Assembly: GCA_902777355.1 (NCBI GenBank)
Contig: CACYTU010000005.1
Span: 75,039 to 120,007, forward strand
Direction of reading: 5' to 3'
Origin: an uncultured Lachnospiraceae bacterium
Lineage (GTDB): Bacteria; Bacillota; Clostridia; Lachnospirales; Lachnospiraceae
Length of the DNA: 44,969 nucleotides
Both the position numbers and the translations under genes were made by a program. The notes beneath the pieces were generated by a model. The model did no database searches and was not told the DNA's origin. It worked only from the letters and a program-made list of their open reading frames with translations. Shown here piece by piece: positions 7,909-21,201 of the stretch. Every line of letters starts with the position of its first letter. The stretch's first letter is position 1.

Positions 7909-8222
7909 TGTGCCCTCCTATTTCCAAAGGAAGCAGGGCGGAGGCGGCACCGCCATCCACTCATCCACTGCCCCCATACCGGCCCTGTCCGCCGCATGGG
8001 CGGTACTCTTACATTATCGCCGGTCAATACACCATACCGGCCCTGCCCGCTGCATGGGCGGTACTCTTACATTACGCCGTCAATACACCATACCGGCCTT
8101 TCCGCCACAAGCGCGGACAATTACATTTGGCAGGCCTTGTCAAAAAGAAAGTGCCGTGCCAAAACAGGCACGACACTCCCGATGATAACTCTTGCTCGAA
8201 ATGAACAAATGCAGAAACTGCA
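7909..8222. repeat. Gap between rplS and rbgA with a ~57-bp tandem repeat
   Basis: The 314-nt space holds no convincing gene. It contains two full copies of a 56-58-bp direct repeat (7974-8031 and 8032-8087) and a partial third (8088-~8118), each starting CCATACCGGCC. Each full unit contains a small inverted repeat around GCATGGGCGG. The rplS terminator occupies 8141-8177. In many Firmicutes the signal peptidase gene lepB sits at this position; nothing like it is present. There are no spacers of differing sequence, so this is a simple tandem repeat. Confidence 0.8.
8141..8177 (-). terminator. Intrinsic terminator of rplS
   Basis: On the minus strand an 11-bp stem (AGTGTCGTGCC paired with GGCACGGCACT, one G-T pair, 8150-8177) with a 6-nt loop is followed by TTCTTTTTG. 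It lies 46 nt after the rplS stop codon. The tandem repeats, and then rbgA, come after it, so rbgA probably depends on read-through or its own promoter. Confidence 0.85.
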
Positions 8223-8585
8223 TTATTTCTTTCTGTCGTCGATTCTGGCTTTGACCTTCGCCTTCTTGCCGCTCAGACCACGCAGATAGAACAGTTTGGC
8301 TCTTCTGACTTTACCTCTGCGGACAACTTCAACGTTCTCCACATTGGGGGAATGAATAGGCCAGGTCTTCTCAACGCCGATGCCGTTGGAAATCTTTCTG
8401 ACAGTGAAGGTAGTCCTTGCGCCGCCGCCCTGGATCTTGATAACAGTACCCTCGAAGATCTGTACTCTTTCACGAGTACCTTCTTTGATACGGTTGTGAA
8501 CACGGACAGTGTCGCCCGTTGCGAACTGAGGTACTTCCGCCTTCAGCTGCTCCTTCTCGAGTTCCTTGATAATTTCGAAATTCAT
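8223..8585 (-). CDS. rplS: 50S ribosomal protein L19
   Basis: Ribosomal protein L19 at the 30S/50S interface. From the ATG at 8585 it has 120 residues, the usual length; AAGGAGAA precedes this ATG at good spacing. The frame is open for seven more codons but they lack a ribosome binding site. Diagnostic stretches are [26 protein letters not shown], and [15 protein letters not shown] followed by a basic tail. Normally rplS directly follows trmD; here trmD ends 10.8 kb away, across the Pel cluster. It has its own promoter and a ~280-nt leader. Confidence 0.97.
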
Positions 8586-8866
8586 TCTGTTCTCCTTCCT
8601 TTCCACGCCGGACGTTCTTGCCCTCCTGCGCTCCTTACAAAAATCCCGACTGAACAGGTCTTGTGTCAGCGCACTCTCTTGAAAACGGCGCCGGAAATGA
8701 GTCTTCTTTCAGAACCTTCAGCTCTCTCCGCATCCGGTCTGTTCCGCCCGTCTCAGATATTTAATAATATAAATTAAAGAAGGTGTTTTTTGTCCCTCAG
8801 TCTCAACCGGCAGAGGAACGTCTTAAGTGTTCAGAAATACGGCTGATATGCCGATTAAAAAGCAAC
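8586..8866 (-). promoter_or_regulatory. Long rplS leader, candidate L19 autoregulatory leader
   Basis: From the predicted transcription start near 8866 to the rplS ATG there are about 280 nt without a gene. The beginning can fold a small hairpin (CGGCATATCAGCCG on the minus strand, 8840-8853). An L19 leader family is known in Firmicutes, but I cannot match its consensus by eye. The length alone suggests regulation at the RNA level. Confidence 0.35.
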
Positions 8867-8872
8867 GCTAAT

Positions 8873-8901
8873 AATCTATCACATAAGGGAAAAATACGCA
8901 A
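8873..8901 (-). promoter_or_regulatory. Promoter of rplS
   Basis: On the minus strand TTGCGT (-35, 8896-8901) and TAGATT (-10, 8873-8878) are separated by 17 nt. The promoter sits between the MITE-like element (8940-9102) and rplS, downstream of the last Pel gene. It would let rplS be expressed without depending on transcription through the 10-kb insertion. Confidence 0.7.
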
Positions 8902-8939: not shown

Positions 8940-9102
8940 GTTACAGTTCAGGCCATGCTGAAAACAATACGCCTTTTGTGCATCACAGTTTCGGCGGGAC
9001 GCTCCCGCTCCGTGAAAAACGCAGCGGATACTAAGTTCAAGGCCCGCCTCTACAGCAATGCACAAAAGGCGCTCCAAGAATCAGGTGGGCCTGAACTGTA
9101 AC
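8940..9102. mobile_element. MITE-like element with target-site duplication
   Basis: A 163-bp segment bounded by perfect 15-bp terminal inverted repeats, GTTACAGTTCAGGCC (8940-8954) and its complement (9088-9102). The direct octamer ATTTCATC flanks both sides (8932-8939 and 9103-9110), which looks like an 8-bp target duplication. Inside is a second inverted pair, CGCCTTTTGTGCA near 8969 and TGCACAAAAGGCG near 9059-9071. A central hairpin, GCGGGACGCTCCCGC (8994-9008), is also present. It is too short to encode a transposase. It lies 12 bp past the stop of the last Pel gene. A diverged, inverted relative is at 37697-37905. Confidence 0.8.
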
Positions 9103-9114
9103 ATTTCATCCGCT

Positions 9115-10563
9115 TTACTGACGGTATCTGTATATCTTATGAATTCCGCCCGGGCCGGGGACGACTCCCTTCTGACCCAGTGTGATGAAATTCCTGCCGT
9201 CAGGACTATTGATCGAGATTCCCACACTGTACCCTTTCAGCAGACTGTCGGAATATGGCACGGTGCCGGTCGCTGTAACAGTTGTACCGGGAAGAAGCCG
9301 GGAAAGCGAAAGGTCCAGTTTCTGTTCCCGGATACATTCCTTCTGATCGTCAAATACATACATAGTGACAGGCCAGTCCCAATAGAATGGGGCATTTCCT
9401 ACGTTGGTAAACGACAGTGAGAAAACCAGGTCGTCCCTGATGAAATCGACTGTTGTCTGAAGCCGGCTCAGATAAAAACAATATCCCACATTTCGGAGTA
9501 TCATTCCGCTTCCGTTTGTATCCTGCCTGGAGGCGTCCGGACAGACGGGTCCGATAAAGGAAGTGTGGGAACTCCTGATCTGGGCCAGAGTATCGGACAG
9601 ATTCTCCATCAGCAGCTGATCCATGTCGATCACCTGCGTCAGCCCTCCGCCAACGGGTCCTGTCATCCAGGGGGAAGCATCACCCTCGGAGAGATAATCG
9701 TCAAGAGTCTTCTTTTCTATAACATCACCGCTTTCATCAACCGGGGTGTCTGTCTGTTCTTCTCCGGCATCCGAAATCTGTGTGTCCAGGTTCTCCCTGA
9801 TCCATTGCGATGCCTCCAGCGGAGCGCCCAGAACATCGTTCCAGTTTCCCGATTTATCCGTGGCGGAAGCTCCGGGGCTGTTCAGAAGCCTGATTTGGCC
9901 CTCAGCGGGGAAGCATTCGGCATACTGCCGCTGGTACTGCGTACGGACAGAATCCGCAGGAACGGTGCCTCCTGCTGCGGGGAATGCGGTCCACAGGCCG
10001 TTCTGTCCGATCGATCCCATCTCCACATATGAGACAAAGCTGTCCCTTGCGCACCAGTCCGCCAGTGCCCTGAGAGCTCTTCCGTGAGCTTCTATAAAGA
10101 CTGCATTGCTGTAATCAGGACAATAGCCTTTTCCGGAGGGATCGTCATAATCCCTTCCGTCTGCGGTCTTCTCATACAGCCAGTCGGGAATGTCTCTGTG
10201 CTGTGTATCCCCGGGCTTATCGCATACAAGTCTCAGCACGGCATGTTTTTTCGCTTCCCGGTACTCCGCAATATGGTATTTTGCCTCGATGGCATCAAAG
10301 TCAAACACGCCTTCCTGTGGTTCCAGCTCGGAGAGAGTCAGAAGGATAAAGACCAGGTCGGTTTTATCACAGTCTTCAGGATTCTCGGCGGGCGGCGCGT
10401 ATCCGATCAGGGGGTTCTGAGGCATCATTTCCGATGCGTCATACAGGACAATATCATAGAGCCGATATCTTCCCGGAACAATATAGAGCAGGATCCCCGC
10501 GATCAGGACCACCTGTATGGCGATCATAATAAACGGAAGTTTTTTACGAATGAATGATTTCAT
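9115..10563 (-). CDS. Membrane-anchored DUF4832-like protein at the end of the Pel cluster
   Basis: It has 482 residues. A basic N-terminus is followed by one hydrophobic segment (about 11-29), consistent with a membrane-anchored extracellular protein. The middle part resembles a glycoside-hydrolase-type barrel (RLVCDKPGD, ALADWCARD, YVEMGSIGQNGLW), and the C-terminal ~110 residues form a beta-sandwich-like module (VFSLSFTNVGNAPFYWDWPV). This arrangement resembles DUF4874/DUF4832 proteins, by memory of the pattern rather than a search. A ~25-residue acidic Thr/Asp/Glu stretch interrupts the barrel region. The start is ATG 10563 with GAGG 10 nt upstream. It is separated from pelG by 41 nt, so it is probably co-transcribed. 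A role in polymer processing or export is inferred from position only. Confidence 0.65.
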   Translation of the reverse strand: MKSFIRKKLPFIMIAIQVVLIAGILLYIVPGRYRLYDIVLYDASEMMPQNPLIGYAPPAENPEDCDKTDLVFILLTLSELEPQEGVFDFDAIEAKYHIAEYREAKKHAVLRLVCDKPGDTQHRDIPDWLYEKTADGRDYDDPSGKGYCPDYSNAVFIEAHGRALRALADWCARDSFVSYVEMGSIGQNGLWTAFPAAGGTVPADSVRTQYQRQYAECFPAEGQIRLLNSPGASATDKSGNWNDVLGAPLEASQWIRENLDTQISDAGEEQTDTPVDESGDVIEKKTLDDYLSEGDASPWMTGPVGGGLTQVIDMDQLLMENLSDTLAQIRSSHTSFIGPVCPDASRQDTNGSGMILRNVGYCFYLSRLQTTVDFIRDDLVFSLSFTNVGNAPFYWDWPVTMYVFDDQKECIREQKLDLSLSRLLPGTTVTATGTVPYSDSLLKGYSVGISINSPDGRNFITLGQKGVVPGPGGIHKIYRYRQ

Positions 10564-10604
10564 TTACGAAATGCCTCATTTCAGGACTAATGATCAGAGC
10601 AGGA

Positions 10605-12128
10605 TCACCTCTGCGGCCTCACTGCCCTCCTTTTTCCATCTTTCAGTTCAGTGACCTTCTTTGTCCTCTGCTGATTTCCCAGGCGTTTGTCTATCCCGGT
10701 AAGGATACGGTCAAGGCCTGTAAAAATCCCGGCAGCAGGGACATACTCCGCCTGCCTTCCCAGAAGCAGATAGGGCAGGCGCTGTGTCGCCCACTCCAGG
10801 CGGCAGAACACAATGAGGAAGTAGACGATCGCCCCGGCCATGAATCCCAGGCCATAATAGGCCGTGTCGCCATAGACTGCCTGCCAGATCGTCACCGCAT
10901 TGGCGACAACAGCGAAGGCCGCCGTGGCCGTCAGGGTGCCGACATAGTCTTCAAAATAGAGCAGGATGAGCATCATGGCATTCGCGATTGCGTACAGGCC
11001 GTAGCCGACACACAGAGTACGGAAAATACCTTTGCCCAGGTCTGTCATACCCAAAGGCAGGAAATCCATGATGAAACCGCCGAAAACAACGAAGAGGAGG
11101 GTACTGACGATCTGCCTGTAACCACAGTAAGTCAGCTCACGGCTCAGTACTTCGACCATCCTGTCCTCTGCTGCTTCTATATCACTGATCGATCCCCCGT
11201 CATTGTACAGGCTGTAATACTGCCTGTATTCAGGATAAAACTGCACTTCCACCGAGGTCACAAAACTGATCGTTGTGATAAGAATGGAAAAAAAGGCTGT
11301 CAGCGAGGGGATATCGTAGCTTGGAGCCGCATAGAACAGACCCATAATCTTCTTGTGGAGGGGACCGAAATACATGATCACCAGGTGACCATAGAGCCCC
11401 AGGTTGACGAATACGCCAGTGAAGGCCAGTGCCCTGCACTTGTCGAACCACTGAAGAAAGGTGAAGGGACTTCCTTCCCCGCGGGGAAAATATCCCAGCA
11501 TGAGAGTAAAATACCAGATACTCATTACCCCATAGGAAAGGATCACGCAGAACATGAGGCTCAGCACTGTTCCCCTGTGGAAAAAGGCCAGTATGAGGCC
11601 GGCCAGGAATCCGGTCATCATCGACGAGGCAAAGCCAAGGGCGATGGAGCGGTAATCTTTAAGCGCTGACAGATAATTCATCTGTGTCCAGACCACGATC
11701 ATAGTCACGGCGAACCACATACTGACGATGCGATAGACAAGAGGGACTCCCGAAAACATCAGGACGATCCCGTATCCCACCATACACAGAGGCAGCATGA
11801 TCGCCAGGGCTCCAAAGAAAGACGGCATGACCCGCTCTCTCTTTCCCTCATAGAGCATATCAGAAATATATCTTGTCAGGATCATATTAAAGAAGCTTGA
11901 GACAAACAGAGAGACCAGCAGGCTGTAAGTCAGCATGCAATTCATTATCTCCCTCTGTCCCTGCGGCATGCCTGCGACCTGGGATACAAATGATATTCCC
12001 AGAAGCAGGCAGACACCCATGACCATGGGACCGATCGCCACGGCTCCCGCATAGGCATAAGCCCTGCACAGATTCAGCATACCTTTTTTCTGGAATAGCC
12101 TGTTCAGGCTGAATCCTATACCTGCCAT
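10605..12128 (-). CDS. pelG: Pel exopolysaccharide membrane transporter PelG
   Basis: Polytopic inner-membrane protein of the MOP flippase type, which with PelD and PelE exports the Pel polymer (a partly deacetylated GalNAc-rich polysaccharide). From the ATG at 12128 it has 507 residues with about 12 hydrophobic helices. The N-terminal MAGIGFSLNRLF is the characteristic PelG beginning; the frame extends to a TTG at 12149 but that would place the AGGAGG inside the coding region, so I use the inner ATG. Conserved-looking stretches are SFFNMILTRYISDMLYEG and the segment around GYFPRGEGSPF. It sits 68 nt downstream of pelF. Confidence 0.9.
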   Translation of the reverse strand: MAGIGFSLNRLFQKKGMLNLCRAYAYAGAVAIGPMVMGVCLLLGISFVSQVAGMPQGQREIMNCMLTYSLLVSLFVSSFFNMILTRYISDMLYEGKRERVMPSFFGALAIMLPLCMVGYGIVLMFSGVPLVYRIVSMWFAVTMIVVWTQMNYLSALKDYRSIALGFASSMMTGFLAGLILAFFHRGTVLSLMFCVILSYGVMSIWYFTLMLGYFPRGEGSPFTFLQWFDKCRALAFTGVFVNLGLYGHLVIMYFGPLHKKIMGLFYAAPSYDIPSLTAFFSILITTISFVTSVEVQFYPEYRQYYSLYNDGGSISDIEAAEDRMVEVLSRELTYCGYRQIVSTLLFVVFGGFIMDFLPLGMTDLGKGIFRTLCVGYGLYAIANAMMLILLYFEDYVGTLTATAAFAVVANAVTIWQAVYGDTAYYGLGFMAGAIVYFLIVFCRLEWATQRLPYLLLGRQAEYVPAAGIFTGLDRILTGIDKRLGNQQRTKKVTELKDGKRRAVRPQR

Positions 12129-12196
12129 CCGACTGCAAACCTCCTGCAAATCAATTTACAATGTTGTGTTCATGGAGCGATGCACGCAGCAGCTCC

Positions 12197-13618
12197 TCAC
12201 TGCCTGCGGGATCTCCATCTGCGGAAAACATCCTCATAGGCGTCCAGATAATTCCGGATCATATCCTCGTGGCGGAAATATTTTTCAGCTCTCTGTTTTG
12301 CCACATTTCCCATCTGCAGCCGTCTGGCGCTGTTGCGGCACAGATCTTCCATAGCGCGTGCGAGCTCATGGGGCTGCATGGGAGGCACGCAATATCCTGC
12401 CTGCCCGAGTTTGTCATCGCCGTCTCCGAAGATCAGCTCCTTGCAGCATCCCACATCCGTCGTCACGCAGGGGCGGCCTGACGCGAAAGATTCCAGGACG
12501 GAGAGCGGCTGTCCCTCGGAAATACTGGAAAGCACAGTAAAATCAAAGTCTCCCATATATTGGAGAACATTGATGGTGCCCATGAACACAGCGTTCTTTA
12601 TCCCCAGCTGGTTCATGAGATTTCTGCATTCCAAAGCATATTCCGGATCATCTTCGGGACCCGCGATATAAAGCTTTGCGGCGGGAATATGCTGTTCAAC
12701 CTCCGCGAAGGCATAGAGCATGGTCTTGACATCCTTGATCGGGGCGATTCTGAGCACGGCTCCGATATGAATGTCATCTGCCCGGGCGCGGGGGGGCACA
12801 GCGGCAAATTTTTCATAATGGATGCCGTTGGCTATCCACCTGCACAGGTCCGGATCCGCTCCTATTTCAATCTGTGTGAGTCTGGCGCGGTTGAACAGGC
12901 TGGTGACCATGGAGGCACCGTCATAGGCCGCGCTTGAAAGCATGTAGAAAAATCGGATCCACAGATCCTTGAAATCAGGAAGCACCCAGTTTGCCCGGAT
13001 GATTTCCTCCTCCCTCTCACGTGTGTAAATTCCGTGCTCTGTGAGAAGGAAGGGAACCCTGCTTTTCCAGCTGCCCAGCCTGGCCAGCACGCCCGCATAT
13101 CCGGTCGCGATCGTGTGATATACATCCGCCTGAGGTACATCGGAACACATCACGTAGAGAAGCGGGAACAGCATAGAGCGGATCGTGTGGAAATAGTCTG
13201 AAAAAGCTGTGTATGTATACTTCTGGCGGCAGATCTCCGACAGAGTGTCCAGAAAGTATTTGCTGGAAAGGAAGTCGGCAGGCGAGACCTTCTTCTGCTG
13301 GAAAATTCCGAACAGCACTTCCCAGTCCGGTCTTCCGCACTCGACAAGTTCGCGCATGGCGCCCAGTTCGGCATCGGTGAATTTCAGACTGCGCTTACGG
13401 TCTCTGCGGGGCGCAGCATTTGTAAGGGATACTTCCCGCACTTCCACTACATTTGGCGGAAGCTGATAGCGGAATTTCCCGTTCTGAGAGGGATCTGCAT
13501 TGATAGCCCAGACCACAAACTCATGCTGAGGCATCGCCTGTATATACTGATGCATCCAGGATGACACACCTCCGGTCACATAGGGATAGCATCCCTCCAG
13601 TATCACGCAAATTCTCAT
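12197..13618 (-). CDS. pelF: Pel polymer glycosyltransferase PelF (GT4)
   Basis: Cytosolic retaining glycosyltransferase of family GT4, which polymerises Pel from a UDP-sugar donor. It has 473 residues. The N-terminus has the PelF-type acceptor loop (EGCYPYVTGGVSSW, about 8-21). The C-terminal Rossmann domain includes RIAPIKDVKTM and the GT4 E-x7-E motif (EGQPLSVLE, followed by SFASGRPCV) for UDP-sugar binding. The ATG at 13618 follows AAAGG. Unlike general GT4 enzymes it carries a long insertion between the two domains, as PelF does. Its partners in the same operon are PelG, PelE and PelD. Confidence 0.92.
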   Translation of the reverse strand: MRICVILEGCYPYVTGGVSSWMHQYIQAMPQHEFVVWAINADPSQNGKFRYQLPPNVVEVREVSLTNAAPRRDRKRSLKFTDAELGAMRELVECGRPDWEVLFGIFQQKKVSPADFLSSKYFLDTLSEICRQKYTYTAFSDYFHTIRSMLFPLLYVMCSDVPQADVYHTIATGYAGVLARLGSWKSRVPFLLTEHGIYTREREEEIIRANWVLPDFKDLWIRFFYMLSSAAYDGASMVTSLFNRARLTQIEIGADPDLCRWIANGIHYEKFAAVPPRARADDIHIGAVLRIAPIKDVKTMLYAFAEVEQHIPAAKLYIAGPEDDPEYALECRNLMNQLGIKNAVFMGTINVLQYMGDFDFTVLSSISEGQPLSVLESFASGRPCVTTDVGCCKELIFGDGDDKLGQAGYCVPPMQPHELARAMEDLCRNSARRLQMGNVAKQRAEKYFRHEDMIRNYLDAYEDVFRRWRSRRQ

Positions 13619-13720
13619 ATCTGCCTTTCATCTTGGATTCCGGTACGTCTTCTGAATCCTTATCTTGGTGCCGGTTTCCTGCCGGTCCCGGACTATTTCC
13701 GGTTCCCTGCTGATCCCGGC

Positions 13721-15559
13721 TTATTTATTGATCTCAATCTCCAGCTCCGGAGAAGCCGCTTTCACGAGATAGAGTCCGTCTGAAGCCTGACTGATGGTAC
13801 CTCCGCTCACGCGTCCGGGCCTTCCCTCGTTGACCCTCAGGTAGAACCAGGCCTCGTCACAGAATCCGCCCAGAGAAATATGGATTCCTCTGGCGGTGTC
13901 CTCCCGCCTGATCTGCAGTGCGTCATAGCGCTGCACCGCTCCGGTCAGCTCGCTGCCGGTCAGGTTTCTGAGCTGCGGTATGGCACTGTGCAGCCATTCG
14001 ACGTAATCCGTGAGACGATTGAACAATTCTTCCCATCCCAGAGCCGCACCTCTGTCCGTATCAAGCACGTCGTCAGGATGCTGGAAATGTGTGTTGACAC
14101 AGTGAAAATACAGCTCGCTCATGGCAGCTGCCCGCATATAATCGTCCAGCACGTAGCCGGATATGATACGGGGAGTCTGGACCATTCCGTCATCCGTGAC
14201 AGTGAAATCCTGACTGTAAGAGACATCATTGTCGTCCGGAAGATACAGACTGGCAATAGCCCTGATCTCAGGAAAATCTTTTGCCAGCAGTTCCCGTCCC
14301 TCCGGAGAAATAATATTCGAAGGGGGGACATAGACATGATAGTCCTCGCCGGGGAAGACAGACTGACAGAAATTCCTGAGTTCGATCAGGGAATCCCTCA
14401 TGGCCTCCACGCTCTCCCACTGGCGATAGGAATCATATAAGCCCATATAGTCAAAGCTCTCTGGAACGAGCGGCATGTGGTTATAGCCGTGATAACCCAG
14501 TTCTCCGCCCTCGCGCAACAGCATATTTCCGAAGTACTGGAATCTCGTGATATCCTTGTTTCTGGGGAAGACACCACTGACCTGTGCGGAATAATCCTCG
14601 ATTACAAGACCGGTGTAGCGGATGTTATACTTTTTGGACAGATTGTAAACATCTTTCCACCAGTGATGAGTATAGAAATCCTTGATATCCATCCCGTAGT
14701 CTTTCTGGATGAACTGGCTGTCTCCTTCGGGGACAGGGGAAGGAAAATCATCAATATAAAAAGTCGAGCCGTTGATAACAGGCCAGATACATTTGTCATC
14801 GAGAAGAGAATACGCAGCGCAGTGAAAGCCCCGATAGGCCTTCTCAAGAAAGCTGAGATTGTCAAAGACTATACTGCCCTGACCATAAGCATATCTCCAG
14901 AGCAGAGGTGTCTCAGACTGGCCCTGCGATTCCATAAAGACTTCGCACTTTTTGTCCAGAGTGACGTTCAGCGAAGATTTATAGGGATCCGTGATGGGAA
15001 AATCTCTGTCGGCGCCAGGCATAAACTGCCTGGTAAAGTGGATGCCCTCGACCCTGGCCATATCATTTCCGACAGTCCTGATCCCGAGTTTGTCCGACAC
15101 TGACAGAAATGTTGCTTCGTTAAAAGGAGGGAACAGGAAGAGCAGGGAATGTCCTTCAGAGACCCAGTCCAGCAGATCAGTGAGACCTTTTCCCAGGGAA
15201 TTCAGGTCAGACACCGAAAGAACGGCTATATCTTTGCCGGAAAGATGTCTTGCGGAAAAATCGGACGCTTCCCTCTCCTCAAAAGGAATCCTCATCTGGG
15301 AAAGAATCGCCTCCATTTCCCCGCGGCCTTCCTCTCCGGTCCCTTCTTTCTCCCAGATCAGGAGTGTCCCGGCATTTTCAGGCTGGACTGTCCCTTTAAA
15401 ATCAGACGATTCAAGGATGCTGACAGTATGTTTGCCGACACTGTAAAGGACATTTCGTCCAACTGACAGTACTACGGCGAACATAAGTGTATAAATAATC
15501 AGAATCTGAAGAAGCTGCAGAAAACGCAGCTTTCTGTTTGGTTTCTTTTTTTTCTCCAA
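13721..15559 (-). CDS. pelA: Pel deacetylase, PelA-type (DUF2194)
   Basis: It has 612 residues: one N-terminal membrane segment (about 15-34), a Rossmann-like domain (~60-250), then a polysaccharide-deacetylase-like barrel. The metal-binding pattern of CE4-type deacetylases is visible as Asp270-Asp271 (FYIDDFP) and His357/His361 (GYHGYNHMP). In Gram-positive Pel clusters the deacetylase is a separate membrane-anchored protein without the fused hydrolase of Pseudomonas PelA, which fits here; the hydrolase is the separate GH114 gene at 18530-19495. The start is a TTG at 15559 with GGGGG seven nt upstream; no ATG of comparable quality precedes the membrane segment. A 61-nt gap follows pelE. Confidence 0.87.
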   Translation of the reverse strand: MEKKKKPNRKLRFLQLLQILIIYTLMFAVVLSVGRNVLYSVGKHTVSILESSDFKGTVQPENAGTLLIWEKEGTGEEGRGEMEAILSQMRIPFEEREASDFSARHLSGKDIAVLSVSDLNSLGKGLTDLLDWVSEGHSLLFLFPPFNEATFLSVSDKLGIRTVGNDMARVEGIHFTRQFMPGADRDFPITDPYKSSLNVTLDKKCEVFMESQGQSETPLLWRYAYGQGSIVFDNLSFLEKAYRGFHCAAYSLLDDKCIWPVINGSTFYIDDFPSPVPEGDSQFIQKDYGMDIKDFYTHHWWKDVYNLSKKYNIRYTGLVIEDYSAQVSGVFPRNKDITRFQYFGNMLLREGGELGYHGYNHMPLVPESFDYMGLYDSYRQWESVEAMRDSLIELRNFCQSVFPGEDYHVYVPPSNIISPEGRELLAKDFPEIRAIASLYLPDDNDVSYSQDFTVTDDGMVQTPRIISGYVLDDYMRAAAMSELYFHCVNTHFQHPDDVLDTDRGAALGWEELFNRLTDYVEWLHSAIPQLRNLTGSELTGAVQRYDALQIRREDTARGIHISLGGFCDEAWFYLRVNEGRPGRVSGGTISQASDGLYLVKAASPELEIEINK

Positions 15560-15620
15560 TGGCTGCCCCCTGGCTGACCTGCCTTAATCGCAAAAATCCC
15601 ATCCGGAGTACCTTCTCCGC

Positions 15621-16556
15621 TCAGGAAGACACTGCACTCCAGAACTCAAGCTGCTTTCGTTGCTCTGGAGAAAAATATACATTCCGCTCCTGTGCTTCGC
15701 GAATGATCCGGGCGATCGCGCTGCCGTCTCTGACAAGCGCCTTTGCCCTGATCCTCAACATACAGCAGTCTCCATCGAAGGGGTTCTCCTGCTGCAGCAT
15801 TCCTGTATACTTCTCTGCCGCCTCGACATCTCCCTGAAGAAGACACATGGCAGCAATCCGTTTCTGTGCGGCAAGGCGCTGCCCGGCGTATGTTCCGGGA
15901 CGGGCATTGCCCATGGCCCGGCTCTGCCAGTCGATCACATTGAGAAATCTCTCCAGCTTATTCCGGCAATCAGAAATCAGTTCCATCCTCTCGGAGTTCT
16001 CGGGAAGTCCGCTGTTCAAATACTCTTCATAAAGATCCGCGCAGTCCAGAAGAAGTCCCGGATCTCCGGGAGATTCCGTGAGTTTTTTCTCTAATTCGGA
16101 AATCCTCTGGGTATATTCGCTGCGGATCTCGACAAGAGCCGTCACGGCATAATGGACGACTTCCGTGTCGTCATTAACTCCTGCGATTCTGAGAGGTCTC
16201 ACAAAATCCTTTGGTCCGGAATGAAGGACAGACAACAGCAGGCTTCTCCTCTGACGGGGAGAGCCGCTCACAAGGACATCTTCAATGGGAAGGACATCAT
16301 CTACGCCGCCCTTATCCATGCGGATGTTTCTGTAGACTTCGTCTGTGATTCCGAACCGGCTGCTCTCTGCCTCCTGATCCGCTTTTTGTCCGCCCATAAT
16401 ATGGATCTGTGCCACCAGCACGCTGACAGGCCCCCAGATGGGGAGAAGAAAGCAGATCACAAGCATGGCGGGACTTACATATACAGTTCCGCGCTGCCAG
16501 AGAATACAAATCAGAACAGCCGAGATCAGATGTATAGTCATCAAAAAAAGTATCAT
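15621..16556 (-). CDS. pelE: PelE-like membrane protein with helical repeats
   Basis: It has 311 residues. Two hydrophobic helices at the N-terminus (about 2-19 and 28-49) are followed by a soluble alpha-helical region (~80-305) with a TPR-like pattern (LLLDCADLYEEYL, then KRIAAMCLLQGDVEAAEKYTGML). This is the layout of PelE, which bridges PelD and PelG in the export complex. Its ATG overlaps the pelD stop (ATGA at 16553-16556), a sign of translational coupling and fixed stoichiometry. Sequence conservation of PelE is low, so the assignment leans on layout and position. Confidence 0.8.
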   Translation of the reverse strand: MILFLMTIHLISAVLICILWQRGTVYVSPAMLVICFLLPIWGPVSVLVAQIHIMGGQKADQEAESSRFGITDEVYRNIRMDKGGVDDVLPIEDVLVSGSPRQRRSLLLSVLHSGPKDFVRPLRIAGVNDDTEVVHYAVTALVEIRSEYTQRISELEKKLTESPGDPGLLLDCADLYEEYLNSGLPENSERMELISDCRNKLERFLNVIDWQSRAMGNARPGTYAGQRLAAQKRIAAMCLLQGDVEAAEKYTGMLQQENPFDGDCCMLRIRAKALVRDGSAIARIIREAQERNVYFSPEQRKQLEFWSAVSS

Positions 16557-18394
16557 TCGAGGACCCTCTCACGCAGGGATGCATGTTCCAGAGCATCCTG
16601 CAGCAAACCGCAAAGGATAGAAAAATGACTGACGTACCAGAGGCTCTGCTGTTCCTGTGCCGCCTGCTCTACAGTCACGAGAAGTCTGATCACATCTTTG
16701 TTCCCGGATTCCGGGCTCAGGATTCTCTCAAAAGAGACCATGGAGGCGTACATAGGAGCCCCCTCCATGAATCCGGTATTCCTCCAGGTCCCGCCATTTC
16801 CGACTGCGTTCATCATCTCAGGGAACTGAGCTGTGTTAATCTGGCTTCTGGTCGCGTTCTCCCGGCAGCAGGACAGGAGGTAGGCCCTTCCGTTTGCGGG
16901 ATTGATCTGATAAATACAGAAAGTGTTGTTGTCCAAAAGTTCTCTGATCACTTTGACAGACTCAACGCACACTGCCTCAGGTGTTCTCTGGGACAGACGG
17001 CGAATGGCTTCATAGAGTTTTCTGTAGCTCTCCTCTTCGCTGAGCACCTGGGCGCGCAGCTCTTTTTTGTCCCTCACGCTTTCGCGGTAGGCGTCGTTCA
17101 GGAACAGATATTTCTTTCTGATCAGTCCGTTTTCCGCTGATACAGAGCGGATTTTCTGTTCATTTTTCTGGTGCGTATAACCACAGATTACGCCTGCTGT
17201 CAGATAGTAGACAAAGGGAATCCAGTTTTCAACATTGTAGAAAAGAAGCAGGCCGGAAATACCGATCTCTTTGTAGCGGAGCACAAGCATAATGCATTGC
17301 AGAACCGCTGCCCCACTTCCTGCCGCCAGTCCGTGCATCATGCCCATCAGGACTACATACAGGAGACGGACATCCACGATTTTAAAATAGACCGAGTCAG
17401 AAGTGATTTTAGCCAGAAACTCCGTGATCACGAACATGACCAGCAGATCCAGGATCACAACAGAAAAACGTCCGAATCTGCCCAGATAGGCTGCTGCTTT
17501 CTCTCTGAAAGGCAGCCTGTCTTCAGATTCCTGTATCAGTTTCGCATACTGTGCCGCAACGGTTTCTTTCCAGTCGATCATGGCAGGCAGACTGTACATC
17601 TCTTCGAGACTGCCGTCCAGACCTCCCATATAAGGCGCGGGAAGTTCGATCACCACAGAGCCCCTGGGGTCAGTTCCGGGGATTTTCTGCATCTCCCCGT
17701 CTTTTCCCGTGAAACCGATCTGCGCGTCTGGTCTGCAGGACAGGAGGACTTCCCTGAAATTTTCCAGAGAAGTGATATTTCCCGTTGCCGAGTAGATTCC
17801 GGGTCTGAACCAGGACTCCGATGTCATCCTCACGAGAAGGGAACACAGTTCTCTTATAGTCAGGATCGCTGCCGGTGAGCCCGCCGTTCCTTTCAGAGAG
17901 ACAAACCGCTTTTTCTGCATCAGCTTGAAAATCCTGCTCAGCCGGCTGCGGTTGATGTCCGTGCCCGATACCAGAGGCAGGCAGACCACTGCCATCTCAA
18001 CTTTTTGTCCGGCTTCTTCAGGCTCCGACCACTTGCCGATCATCCAGCGATAGTCAGCGGGATCAGTGCTCTCTGTGATCACGACCATCCTGCCGACGCC
18101 GGACCTGGCACACTGCTGAAGGATAGCCTCGATCCGGTCTGTCTCGTCCACAGGCTTTCCGCCGTCGGCGCAATGAGTGACATACCAGACCGCGCTGATC
18201 CGTCCCGCTTCAAAAATCCTTCCGAAATCGTTATCTGAAGGATCGGTCGAAAAACTGCGGATATTCTCCGGAATGCTTTCTTTCACATCATTCCTGTTTT
18301 TATCCGCAATATAAACACTATGCGCTGTATTGAAATATGCGAGCGCCTCAGTAGGAAAGAGACGCGTATTCCCTGTCAAAAGGATTGTATTCAT
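16553..18394 (-). CDS. pelD: PelD: degenerate SDR domain, membrane helices and GAF domain, no GGDEF
   Basis: It has 613 residues in three parts. Residues ~1-250 resemble an NAD-dependent epimerase/SDR fold (MNTILLTGNTRLFP start, VVITEST, ATGNITSLENF), but the dinucleotide glycine motif is eroded. Residues ~311-405 contain three to four membrane helices. Residues ~455-605 look like a GAF domain (RRLSQRTPEAVCVESV to the end). In Pseudomonas and Bacillus, PelD ends with a degenerate GGDEF domain whose RxxD site binds c-di-GMP and switches on export. Here the protein stops within about ten residues of the GAF domain, so that receptor is missing. The ATG at 18394 follows AGGAT at 7 nt. The 135-nt gap to the GH114 stop contains the perfect 14-bp palindrome GTCTGCGCGCAGAC. 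Confidence 0.87.
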   Translation of the reverse strand: MNTILLTGNTRLFPTEALAYFNTAHSVYIADKNRNDVKESIPENIRSFSTDPSDNDFGRIFEAGRISAVWYVTHCADGGKPVDETDRIEAILQQCARSGVGRMVVITESTDPADYRWMIGKWSEPEEAGQKVEMAVVCLPLVSGTDINRSRLSRIFKLMQKKRFVSLKGTAGSPAAILTIRELCSLLVRMTSESWFRPGIYSATGNITSLENFREVLLSCRPDAQIGFTGKDGEMQKIPGTDPRGSVVIELPAPYMGGLDGSLEEMYSLPAMIDWKETVAAQYAKLIQESEDRLPFREKAAAYLGRFGRFSVVILDLLVMFVITEFLAKITSDSVYFKIVDVRLLYVVLMGMMHGLAAGSGAAVLQCIMLVLRYKEIGISGLLLFYNVENWIPFVYYLTAGVICGYTHQKNEQKIRSVSAENGLIRKKYLFLNDAYRESVRDKKELRAQVLSEEESYRKLYEAIRRLSQRTPEAVCVESVKVIRELLDNNTFCIYQINPANGRAYLLSCCRENATRSQINTAQFPEMMNAVGNGGTWRNTGFMEGAPMYASMVSFERILSPESGNKDVIRLLVTVEQAAQEQQSLWYVSHFSILCGLLQDALEHASLRERVLE

Positions 18395-18529
18395 AAAAAA
18401 TATCCTGCTATTTCTGTATAAAACCGCACACCCTCAACCATGGTCTGCGCGCAGACTCTGCGTGAAACTCCTCAAGTCCCACGCAGGTTTAACCTGTAAC
18501 GACACACGTATGAATAATCCCGCAAGGCA

Positions 18530-19495
18530 CTACTCATAGGGATTCAGATTTACGTGCTCGGATATATAATAGCGGTATCCGTTTTTTTCACTATATCGGG
18601 CAATCTTCTCAGCAAGATCTGCATCGCGTGTATATTCCAGAAGGAAAACATCGAGCCCTGCATCACTGCACATTTTCAGATAGCCAACATAAAACTGTTC
18701 CTGTTCTTCCTTTGCCTTGCCGAATTTATCGCGGTCATAATCGATAATCCTGGTAAATACAGTCTCCTGGTTGACTCCGCGGATCAGATCATGCTCCTCT
18801 TCCTCTATGAGCCGGGTAACAAAATCATCCGCCCCGTTGACAAGGACCGGAAGGCCCATGTCCCGGTAGGATTCCAGAATTTCGATCAGAGAATCATAAG
18901 TGCCTGCGGCAATATCCTTGTATTTTTTCTTTTCCTGCACATGCCCGTATATATCCAGGTTATCCAGGAAAAAGCCATCGATCTGCGGATCTTTTTCCAG
19001 GATCATTTGGGGAAGGGTTTCCCCGGCAAACTTGATCCATGCCTTATCTGTCACATTCACCCAGATTTCATCGGGCCAGTTATCATATCTGTCCAGGCAC
19101 AGCTTTTTGTATTGTCCGAAATACTCCCTGTTCTTTTCCAGGGAACCGACATTCAGATAAGAGTAAACGGTATGGCCCGTAGAATGCAGCTGCCTGAGCT
19201 GTTCTGCCCTCAGTTCCTGGGCGTCAATAACTACGAAATCATAGCCCTCAAAATCCCTGATGTTGAAGGAATTTTCATCGATCCCCAGAAAAACGCCATA
19301 GCTCTCATCATATTTTTCTGAGGTGTCAATCAAATCTTCTTTTCCTGTTCCCGGCTTCTCCCCCTCTTCGCCACATCTGTCAATCAGGAAGATGACTGCC
19401 AGAAGCGTCAGAATCACAGCGATCGCTGCTATTATTCTTTTGAACTTCCGCCGTCTCAATTTCTTTCTCTTTCTTTCTCCTGCGGCGTTCCTCAA
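18530..19495 (-). CDS. Membrane-anchored GH114-type glycoside hydrolase of the Pel cluster
   Basis: It has 321 residues: a very basic N-terminus, a membrane segment (about 20-38), then a single catalytic-type barrel. Motifs fit the GH114 endo-alpha-1,4-polygalactosaminidase family: YDFVVIDAQEL, VYSYLNVGSLE, GFFLDNLD, PVLVNGADDFV and FLLEYT. GH114 is the hydrolase type fused to Pseudomonas PelA, which cleaves the Pel polymer; the Asp residues of FFLDNLD are candidate catalytic residues. The start is a TTG at 19495 with GGGAG seven nt upstream, lying inside the 3' end of trmD in another frame. No ATG precedes the membrane segment, so the overlap seems real. It is the first gene of the Pel cluster. 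Confidence 0.85.
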   Translation of the reverse strand: MRNAAGERKRKKLRRRKFKRIIAAIAVILTLLAVIFLIDRCGEEGEKPGTGKEDLIDTSEKYDESYGVFLGIDENSFNIRDFEGYDFVVIDAQELRAEQLRQLHSTGHTVYSYLNVGSLEKNREYFGQYKKLCLDRYDNWPDEIWVNVTDKAWIKFAGETLPQMILEKDPQIDGFFLDNLDIYGHVQEKKKYKDIAAGTYDSLIEILESYRDMGLPVLVNGADDFVTRLIEEEEHDLIRGVNQETVFTRIIDYDRDKFGKAKEEQEQFYVGYLKMCSDAGLDVFLLEYTRDADLAEKIARYSEKNGYRYYISEHVNLNPYE

Positions 19496-20249
19496 TTCGC
19501 CTCTCCCTTTCGATCCTCTTCCGTCTCTCTTCCATCAGTCCGGGATTGTCACGCACAAATTTTTCATAGAGGTCCGGTCTTCGTTCTTTTGTTATAGCAA
19601 GAGACTGTTCGAAACGCCAGATGTCCACTTTCGCGTGATCTCCGGATAAAAGCACCGGAGGCACTTCCTCTCCGTTCCAGACAGCCGGCCGGCTGTACTG
19701 GGGATACTCCAGCAGACCGTTCATAAACGAATCCGTATCCGCAGATTCCCGGTTGCCCAGAACACCCGGGATCATACGCGACACTGCGTCAATAATCACC
19801 ATGGCGGGAAGTTCTCCGCCAGTCAGGACAAAATCACCTACCGATACTTCTTCCGCCCTGACTGCCCGCAGGGCACGGACATCGATACCCTCATAATGGC
19901 CGCAGAGCAGGATCAGTTCCTCTTCCAGGGCCAGTTCCTTAGCCATCTCCTGATTGAAGGTCCTGCCCTGAGGCGACATATACAGGACTCTGGCGGGCTT
20001 TTTCTGTCTCTCAAGAATCCCGGCCTGTACAGAGCAGCAGCAGTCAAAGACAGGCTGTGCCTGCATCAGCATACCCGCTCCGCCGCCGTAAGTATAGTCG
20101 TCGACACTGTTATGAATATTATCGGAGAAATCCCGGATATTCACAGCATTGATCTGAAGCAGCCCCTTCTGAGCGGCCCTTCCGAGAATACTGCTGTCAA
20201 GCGCTGTCCTGACCATATCCGGAAACAGCGTGAGTACATGAAAAATCAT
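19380..20249 (-). CDS. trmD: tRNA (guanine-37-N1)-methyltransferase
   Basis: SPOUT-class enzyme methylating G37 next to the anticodon, which prevents +1 frameshifting. I use the ATG at 20249 (AGGAGAG at good spacing) rather than the TTG two codons upstream. Family motifs are YGGGAGMLMQAQPVFDC, LLCGHYEGIDVRAL and SVGDFVLTGGELPAMV, which form the trefoil-knot SAM site. It has 289 residues against ~245 in most bacteria. The extra C-terminal ~45 residues are highly charged (runs of Arg, Glu and Lys) and end in a Ser/Asp-rich tail. The last 116 nt also encode the start of the GH114 protein. It follows rimM by 25 nt. Confidence 0.96.
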   Translation of the reverse strand: MIFHVLTLFPDMVRTALDSSILGRAAQKGLLQINAVNIRDFSDNIHNSVDDYTYGGGAGMLMQAQPVFDCCCSVQAGILERQKKPARVLYMSPQGRTFNQEMAKELALEEELILLCGHYEGIDVRALRAVRAEEVSVGDFVLTGGELPAMVIIDAVSRMIPGVLGNRESADTDSFMNGLLEYPQYSRPAVWNGEEVPPVLLSGDHAKVDIWRFEQSLAITKERRPDLYEKFVRDNPGLMEERRKRIERERRIEERRRRKKEKEIETAEVQKNNSSDRCDSDASGSHLPD

Positions 20250-20274: not shown

Positions 20275-20787
20275 TTACAAATCCTCCAGCCCGGGCATTA
20301 CGTAGACTGTCATAAAGCCCTCATCGGGTCTGACATCCAGTATACAGTCTGCAATAGCCGGGAGAAGCAGGTCCTTTTTTCCTTCCCTGGCAACCGCGTA
20401 GACATCATTGGATCCCGTCTCTATGACTTCCCGGAGTTTTCCGATTTCCTTTCCGTCCTCAGTCCGGACAGAAAGACCGATGATATCCGCCACATAATAC
20501 TGGGCGTATCCAAGAGGAAGGGCATCACTGCGGTCAATCAGAAGAGGGATCCCCCGCAGGCGCTCCACATCTTCAATGCGGTCAAGGCCCTCAAATCCGA
20601 GGATGACGAATTTTTTAAAAAACTTCACGCTCCGGATCACGAGTCTGCGCTCTCCTTTGGGAGCATCCAGTATCACCTCTTCCAGATCCAGAAAGCGGGC
20701 GGGGTCCTCCGTAGTGGGAAAAACCTTCACCTCTCCGCGAAGTCCGTGTGTACCTGTGATCACACCAACCTGGAAACGTTCTGTCAA
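20275..20787 (-). CDS. rimM: 16S rRNA processing protein RimM
   Basis: Assembly factor for the 30S head, binding S19 during 16S rRNA maturation. It has 170 residues, the usual size. The N-terminal RimM domain is recognised by VGVITGTHGLRGEVKV and the C-terminal PRC-barrel by YYVADIIGLSV and LLLPAIADCILDV. The start is a TTG at 20787, preceded by AGGAGG at nine nt; no ATG start is available that keeps the VGVITG motif. It lies upstream of trmD with a 25-nt gap. A terminator and a repeat-rich gap separate it from khpA, so it may begin a new transcription unit that runs into the Pel cluster. Confidence 0.95.
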   Translation of the reverse strand: MTERFQVGVITGTHGLRGEVKVFPTTEDPARFLDLEEVILDAPKGERRLVIRSVKFFKKFVILGFEGLDRIEDVERLRGIPLLIDRSDALPLGYAQYYVADIIGLSVRTEDGKEIGKLREVIETGSNDVYAVAREGKKDLLLPAIADCILDVRPDEGFMTVYVMPGLEDL

Positions 20788-21201
20788 GTTTCAACACCTC
20801 CTCAACCCGGAGCCTCGTACGGGGATACAGAAAACGGCACTGTGAAGACCGGGGCTGTCCGCCCCGCGCACCCGGCCGCTTTCCCCGCTGCTTTAATTTG
20901 ATTAAAGCCCGAGCGGGCTCGGCATTTGCTGCCGCTTTCCTCGCTGCTTTAACCTTTTTTTGATTAAAGCACGCGCTGCTTCGCGCGTCCCGCGCTCCCG
21001 CATCGCTACACCCATTCGGAACCGCTCATTTTGCGCGCCTTCCGCGCTCAAAATGGCTTATTCCTCATGTGTGTGCGCTCGGAAAATGTCCGCAAATGCC
21101 CGAGCGGGCTCGGCATTTGCTGCCGCTTTCCTCGCTGCTTTAATCACACATAATAAAGAACAAAAAGCGGCGTTTCCGCCGCACTTTTGTTTCAGCCAGT
21201 T
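20788..21201. repeat. Repeat-rich gap between khpA and rimM
   Basis: A 414-nt gap without genes. A 46-bp segment starting GCCCGAGCGGGCTCGG is repeated identically at 20907-20952 and 21098-21143; each copy contains the palindrome CCGAGCGGGCTCGG, and the second forms a longer hairpin with flanking GCAAATGCC. Between them is a GC-rich stretch (CACGCGCTGCTTCGCGCG near 20969) that recurs in shorter form near 2505 and 27045. The related hairpins at 3971-4043 share the CTTTCCTCGCTGCTT tail. These look like dispersed intergenic palindromic units. The khpA terminator is at 21162-21187. I could not identify a clear rimM promoter. Confidence 0.75.
21162..21187 (-). terminator. Intrinsic terminator after khpA
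   Basis: On the minus strand GCGGCG-GAAA-CGCCGC (21167-21182) is a perfect stem with a GNRA tetraloop followed by TTTTTG. It lies about 15 nt past the khpA stop and would separate ffh-rpsP-khpA from rimM-trmD-pel. Confidence 0.85.

Follow-up and report, generated by a model that had tools for sequence, protein, structure and literature searches.

How did a gene cluster for a Pel-type exopolysaccharide come to stand between trmD and rplS, and with which of its neighbours is it transcribed there? The question is raised by a 44,969 bp stretch of DNA from an uncultured Lachnospiraceae bacterium (the window; contig CACYTU010000005.1, positions 75,039 to 120,007, assembly GCA_902777355.1), whose minus strand carries, in this order, rimM, trmD, GH114, pelD, pelE, pelADA, pelF, pelG, DUF4832 and rplS (Table 1). 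A reading made from the sequence alone had described a seven-gene block separating trmD from rplS. Strand, order and coordinates of this block are confirmed here, with corrected starts for GH114 and rplS.

We consider it probable that the pel cluster was acquired once into the seam between rimM-trmD and rplS, that it now forms the 3' portion of the rimM-trmD unit and that its PelD has lost the receptor-like domain. The acquisition would date to the common ancestor of a single clade within a Lachnospiraceae genus, and the landing site would be the seam between the rimM-trmD pair and a separate rplS promoter. The resulting transcription unit would comprise rimM-trmD-GH114-pelDEADAFG-DUF4832, with translational coupling to trmD in several species, and rplS would retain its own promoter and leader. 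The C-terminal domain of PelD, which resembles a receptor for cyclic diguanylate (c-di-GMP), would have been lost after the lineage had separated from its nearest sampled relatives and before the clade ancestor, so that the amount of Pel made would probably depend on the steady and modest transcription of rimM-trmD and not on c-di-GMP.

Distribution and origin of the linked cluster

Sixty-two genomes of the genus were searched for PelG, trmD and rplS. PelG scores above the Pfam cut-off in 12 of them (14 at E 0.001), trmD is matched in all 62 and rplS in 59. The pel cluster is found behind trmD, in identical order, in 11 of the 62 genomes, a recurrence explained neither by chance nor by a contig join. 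In nine of these 11 (the pel species) the cluster is contiguous with rplS on one contig; in G054 it spans two contigs, and in G040, where the genus search found no rplS, it is also split. The pelG of G040 (L122:70-1562) is read in two pieces, which a frameshift, a stop or a sequencing error would explain. In G031, the twelfth genome with PelG, the pel cluster is a different one at another site, and the trmD-rplS gap is of the usual kind.

In 43 of 45 genomes without the linked cluster whose gap was read (G031 included), trmD and rplS are 91-242 nt apart. The gap of G015 (1,035 nt) holds an amidase (L118), and that of G024 (4,106 nt, L117:3906-8000) holds genes for Schlafen/AlbA_2 with HATPase, a helix-turn-helix (HTH) protein and a Phd-like antitoxin. 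The trmD-rplS seam took at least three different insertions within the genus. Six genomes without the linked cluster stand outside these 45: in G021, G022 and G028 approximately 165-390 nt lie between the matched trmD and rplS stretches; trmD and rplS of G048 are split over contigs, and G014 and G061 gave no rplS match in the genus search, their trmD match being possibly a second trmD-like gene.

The genus tree is based on ylxM, ffh, rpsP, kh, rimM, trmD and rplS of 55 of the 62 genomes (five genomes were not fetched, and missing columns excluded G042 and G055). All 11 pel species group together in one clade (support 100) that includes no pel-less genome; the linkage is a single derived event. 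In the PelG tree (45 sequences, including nine of the 11 linked ones) the linked PelGs adjoin those of other Lachnospiraceae genera with 57-58% identity, and a single acquisition from within the family is the simplest reading. The records of the clade comprise Sarcina sp. DSM 11001 as well as gut or rumen bins labelled Lachnospiraceae or Eubacteriales. Sarcina sp. DSM 11001 is listed under Clostridiaceae in the NCBI taxonomy and falls into the genus of the window in our genome survey; a passage of PMC11322510 reports its abundance in the goat rumen.

In the family survey (250 genomes, one per genus, the window's own genome counted) PelG is present in 43 genomes at E 0.001 and in 42 over the cut-off. 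Of the 42 other PelG-positive genomes, rplS was found in 40, none of which has PelG within 12 kb of rplS on one contig (the nearest case is G210, at about 31 kb). The class survey (391 genomes) yields PelG in 19 genomes at E 0.001 and in 15 over the cut-off; rplS was found in 12 of the 13 further class genomes over the cut-off, in no case near PelG on one contig. Outside the genus, linkage was judged by the PelG-rplS distance, trmD positions not being searched there, and most of the genomes surveyed are drafts with PelG and rplS on different contigs. Linkage is not fully excluded where PelG is close to a contig end (under 1.5 kb in G098 and G301), where the PelG match is a fragment, as in some genomes, or where the search yielded no rplS (G103 and G153). 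Family and class surveys together with the genus tree rule out that the pel linkage between trmD and rplS is common or ancestral. No paper describing the arrangement was found in the literature searched, which did not extend to the supplementary figures of PMC7112168.

Junction of trmD and the pel cluster

In 10 of the 11 pel species, the likeliest start of GH114, the gene leading the linked clusters, is -80 to +39 nt away from the trmD stop. The distances are -80 nt in the window's genome (G000), -68 nt in G025, -50 nt in G044, -8 nt in G027, -4 nt in G005 and G054, -4 to +2 nt in G043, +3 or +6 nt in G034, -4 or +11 nt in G018 and +30 to +39 nt in G040. In G005 and G054 the motif GGAGG precedes an ATGA overlap of both genes. 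In the window, TTG at 19459 is a likelier GH114 start than 19495 and results in an overlap of 80 nt with trmD. By a scan for stems and T-tracts, 10 of the 11 species lack a terminator at this junction, and the promoter profile detects no promoter-like site common to the 11 species, either here or in the GH114-pelD gap. Since the genes overlap or abut in 10 of 11 species, with neither a conserved promoter nor a strong terminator between them, pel is probably co-transcribed with rimM-trmD, as the sequence-only reading had supposed.

Several observations weigh against such a common transcript. G026 is the exception at the junction, with a trmD-GH114 gap of 133 nt and a weak terminator-like hairpin (-7.9 kcal/mol), and the GH114 starts of G027 and G044 are uncertain, as later alternatives exist. 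Terminator-like matches occur inside the cluster, at GH114-pelD in G025 and at pelE-pelADA in G044 and G005. The overlap of G000 contains a sigma-70-like match (10/12, p=0.05) at 19459-19431, which is restricted to G000 and missing in its sister G025. Promoter-like scores of p <=0.03 are found at pelADA-pelF in G000, G018 and G025, at pelF-pelG in G026 and at pelE-pelADA in G027; those of G018 and G025 are discounted because their -10-like letters appear to be the coding start of pelF.

Such signals also bear on the alternative that survives best, namely that pel sits in a neutral seam under a promoter of its own (at the 3' end of trmD, in the GH114-pelD gap or further inside) and that read-through from rimM-trmD is incidental. 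The sigma-70-like match would agree with it, as would the GH114-pelD gap of 135 nt in the window, the scattered promoter-like scores within the cluster of five of the 11 species and the acceptance of other inserts by the same seam (the Schlafen/AlbA_2 and Phd antitoxin island of G024 and the amidase of G015). However, the 11 species share no promoter-like site at trmD-GH114 or GH114-pelD, GH114 overlaps or abuts trmD in all but one, and the cluster is neither lost nor moved in any sampled member of the clade; we regard a promoter of its own as unlikely.

Boundaries of the proposed transcription unit

Between kh and rimM, a G+C-rich hairpin followed by T residues is present in all 11 pel species by reading and in 10 of the 11 by script, the hairpin of G000 lying outside the span of the script and being read by eye. 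Some pel-less species possess a kh-rimM hairpin as well; others have gaps of few nt. The promoter profile finds no convincing rimM promoter after the hairpin in the pel species. With a hairpin before rimM and no convincing promoter behind it, the unit may be fed by partial read-through from ffh-rpsP-kh or by an unrecognised promoter. The growth-rate control of Pel suggested from the sequence alone is possible but finds no support here, as the hairpin splits rimM from ffh-rpsP-kh and no rimM promoter is recognised. In E. coli, levels of RimM and TrmD are far below those of the ribosomal proteins of the same operon. With 415 nt, the kh-rimM gap of the window is longer than in the ten other pel species (70-206 nt); it contains a Clostridiales-1 RNA (RF01699) at 20964-21143 and a partial, one-arm duplicate of it at 20904-20952.

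At the other end, the short trmD-rplS gap of pel-less species carries a promoter-like sequence, TTGCAT separated by 17 nt from an extended -10 TGTGGTAAATTA, and a two-arm leader; counterparts of both are predicted in the window (Table 1). The -10 profile, built from 40 of the 45 pel-less species, recovers the region in all 10 pel species examined, every score exceeding the highest among 300 shuffles; the first promoter profile had been trained with the pel species included, and the rplS test was repeated on this pel-less training set. Among the 55 species tested for the leader, the arms pair at four of four positions in 49, at three in four species and at one in a single species, and were not found in G031. 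The pairing count is somewhat inflated, as the best-pairing second arm was picked. Covariation of the arms (GACG/CGTC, GATG/CATC, GACA/TGTC, GATA/TATC) is a stronger sign than this count. The L19 leader of Bacilli is likewise located upstream of rplS, and the portion of PMC4342826 drawn on here gives (L19)-rplS as one unit in B. methanolicus. Place and, likely, role are the same in the window, whereas the sequence is separate or has diverged: the Rfam L19 leader yields no match at gathering score in the window or in 10 pel-less loci, and none in the window even at relaxed thresholds.

The rplS promoter very probably both predated pel and persists today. As promoter and leader already occur in pel-less species, pel would have been appended to the 3' end of the rimM-trmD unit. 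The proposal that pel was placed inside a translation operon finds no support, since rplS has its own predicted promoter and leader, also where pel is missing. One long rimM-trmD-pel-rplS operon under ribosomal growth-rate control appears very improbable: all genes share one strand, and the hairpin between DUF4832 and rplS is modest (-7 to -10 kcal/mol with a weak T run, in seven of 10 pel species), which would make read-through into rplS possible, but a terminator-like hairpin precedes rimM in all 11 pel species and the conserved promoter-like sequence and leader of rplS are ancestral in the genus. On account of this promoter-like sequence, a place of pel within the rplS transcription unit was rejected. 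An assembly or binning artefact is hardly credible, even though the window comes from a draft genome (150 contigs, completeness 84%, contamination 5%), and is refuted by the recurrence of the arrangement in nine contiguous cases from separate assemblies, among them the DSM-numbered Sarcina sp. DSM 11001.

PelD and c-di-GMP

The AlphaFold model of the window PelD (mean predicted local distance difference test score, pLDDT, 74) resembles UDP-sugar epimerases of the short-chain dehydrogenase/reductase (SDR) fold in its N-terminal half (all 50 Foldseek matches listed). Its C-terminal half aligns with an outgroup PelD, the model of which matches PelD and GAF structures. The modelled architecture thus consists of an SDR-like N-terminal domain, membrane helices and a GAF-like C-terminal domain, without a GGDEF-like domain, and by this model the cluster of the window is a class IV-like variant.

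None of the 11 linked PelDs extends beyond the GAF-like part (that of G040 being available as a C-terminal piece), and all 11 lack the degenerate GGDEF domain with RxxD that marks a c-di-GMP-regulated PelD. Outgroup PelDs possess RxxD and a degenerate GGDEF C-terminal domain at six of six readable loci. The PelD of G031 (497 aa) does not match the RxxD/GGDEF motif pattern. In structure comparison of the outgroup C-terminal model (pLDDT 66, three sequences), P. aeruginosa PelD, including its c-di-GMP complex 4dn0, takes ranks 2-6, and a diguanylate cyclase takes rank 1. We infer the loss of c-di-GMP control and the order of the changes.

Other observations count for or against a c-di-GMP-free scheme. 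In its favour, GGDEF domains were not found in four of the 11 pel genomes (G000, G025, G026 and G027, the last 98% complete). Against it, the TM-scores of the outgroup model with PelD are low (0.32-0.36), and the other seven pel genomes contain 1-8 GGDEF domains. Of nine genomes without the linked cluster, three are without GGDEF and six contain 1-39; as GGDEF-less genomes thus occur outside the clade too, scarcity of GGDEF is not special to it.

Comparison with known pel clusters

The Bacillus cereus pelDEADAFG cluster shares with the window the order of pelD, pelE, pelADA, pelF and pelG and an accessory hydrolase. According to sections of PMC7112168, the PelD of B. cereus has a degenerate GGDEF domain whose RxxD mediates the binding of c-di-GMP, and clostridial PelDs have an N-terminal epimerase-like domain. 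In contrast to B. cereus, the window PelD lacks the degenerate GGDEF domain and its cluster stands behind trmD. The Streptococcus intermedius cluster shares both the GGDEF-less PelD (an SDR domain, degenerate in S. intermedius, membrane helices, GAF) and the DUF4832 protein; parts of PMC12345266 name such a PelD class IV, describe the DUF4832 protein SIR_1591 as an active hydrolase and state that Pel regulation without c-di-GMP is unknown in this species.

Streptococcal and clostridial pel clusters are accompanied by cotH, a polyphosphate polymerase and DUF4956, as stated in the same sections of PMC7112168; these genes are absent between trmD and rplS, and GH114 stands in front. The closest PelG relatives (52-58% identity) belong to other Lachnospiraceae pel clusters (L177, L183-L186), which are not linked to rplS, carry cotH and, where the record reaches, VTC-DUF4956, and encode PelDs with a GGDEF-like end in all readable cases. 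Altogether, cotH is carried by L183-L186 (close relatives outside the genus), L177, L179 and L180, and VTC with DUF4956 by all seven except L185, whose record ends there. The linked trmD-rplS intervals, to which the search was confined, contain no cotH, VTC or DUF4956, and the unlinked cluster of G031 (L120) gave no match to the three either. GH114 is matched 2-5 times per genome in all 11 pel genomes and not at all in nine of nine without the linked cluster (G031 included).

The ratio of nonsynonymous to synonymous substitution rates (dN/dS) of the pel genes is 0.05-0.18 (three species pairs; pelE saturated in one), which indicates that they are maintained under purifying selection. At 0.85-2.67 (partly saturated), their dS greatly exceeds the values for rplS (0.14-0.33) and overlaps the range of rimM and trmD (0.52-1.22), which would argue against very high pel expression.

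Annotation of the locus

Gene identities in the window rest on Pfam and NCBIfam profile searches, except for PelD and PelE, which match no Pfam family at E 0.01 and were identified by position and relatives; two PelDs from outside the clade match no Pfam family as well. PelF, PelG, a PelADA in which the Pfam search of the protein finds no hydrolase family, and PelD and PelE upstream in order are the components of a Gram-positive Pel cluster, and the product is predicted to be Pel. PelF additionally matches PF11997 and PF13692 (DUF3492 plus glycosyl transferase group 1). For rplS, ATG at 8585 is a likelier start than 8606.

Table 1. Features of the trmD-rplS region, in window coordinates (ORF, open reading frame)
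Feature	Position	Strand	Evidence
Terminator-like hairpin with T-tract, kh-rimM	21161..21182	-	read in sequence
rimM	20275..20787	-	TIGR02273 2.6e-41
trmD	19380..20249 (ATG at 20249; ORF to 20255)	-	TIGR00088 2.6e-89; basic C-terminal tail
GH114, putative secreted endo-galactosaminidase	18530..19459 (ORF to 19495)	-	PF03537 5.5e-18
pelD	16553..18394	-	613 aa; AlphaFold model, Foldseek SDR matches, 11-sequence alignment, C-terminus comparison
pelE	15621..16556	-	relatives at equivalent place; overlaps pelD by 4 nt
pelADA (DUF2194 deacetylase)	13721..15559	-	PF09960 2.8e-149, residues 36-598 of 612 aa
pelF glycosyltransferase	12197..13618	-	NF038011 1.3e-107, 360.9 bits (cut-off 100)
pelG exporter	10605..12149	-	PF16933 3.3e-124, 415.7 bits (cut-off 29)
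DUF4832 protein	9115..10563	-	PF16116 8e-10; kin of S. intermedius hydrolase SIR_1591 by domain
Predicted rplS promoter, TTGCGT-17-TAGATT, extended -10	8873..8901	-	-10 profile; -35 from alignment
Predicted rplS leader, L19-leader-like	8611..8822	-	paired arms 8822-8809 / 8611-8622
rplS (ribosomal protein L19)	8223..8585 (ORF to 8606)	-	L19 4.7e-49; TIGR01024 3e-46
Predicted intrinsic terminator, 3' of rplS	8147..8180	-	sequence scan

TrmD comprises 257-317 aa with a basic C-terminal tail in the 11 pel species, and 230 to 280 aa, mostly shorter, in the pel-less ones; the region concerned in the window is 19380-19550. A second protein of the TrmD family (G000:C18:55934-56650) is present in many genomes of the genus, some matches to it consisting of two pieces in one frame. 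Between DUF4832 and rplS, the window contains a palindromic element of approximately 165 nt (8940..9102, minus strand) with inverted repeats and 46 matches in its own genome. The nine other pel species in the alignment lack this element at the equivalent position; it resembles a dispersed repeat of the miniature inverted-repeat transposable element (MITE) or repetitive extragenic palindromic (REP) kind. Direct repeats of 43 and 25 nt are located just downstream of the rplS terminator, at 7974-8103.

Implications

The trmD-rplS neighbourhood is often regarded as one operon; a 10-kb insertion is tolerated here at a promoter seam within it. New here are linked PelDs without the c-di-GMP-receptor-like domain, and the pairing of relocation with domain loss is the point most worth testing. 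The clade offers a natural experiment, as receptor-domain loss and linkage to housekeeping genes fall on one branch, the relatives keep the domain and a different location, and one strain has a culture-collection number.

Because the absence of the receptor domain and the capture by rimM-trmD fall on the same stretch of the tree, matrix output might follow the tRNA and ribosome maintenance genes. Pel would then have been rewired from a biofilm polymer gated by a second messenger to a constitutive housekeeping polymer of the envelope, a reading that we put forward tentatively and with some doubt. If it is true, Pel could permanently cement together the cells of cocci that grow in packets, a habit that we assign to Sarcina sp. 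DSM 11001 on account of its genus name. The arrangement and the missing sensor domain for the second messenger suggest that this branch of rumen and gut bacteria may produce Pel as an everyday cell product.

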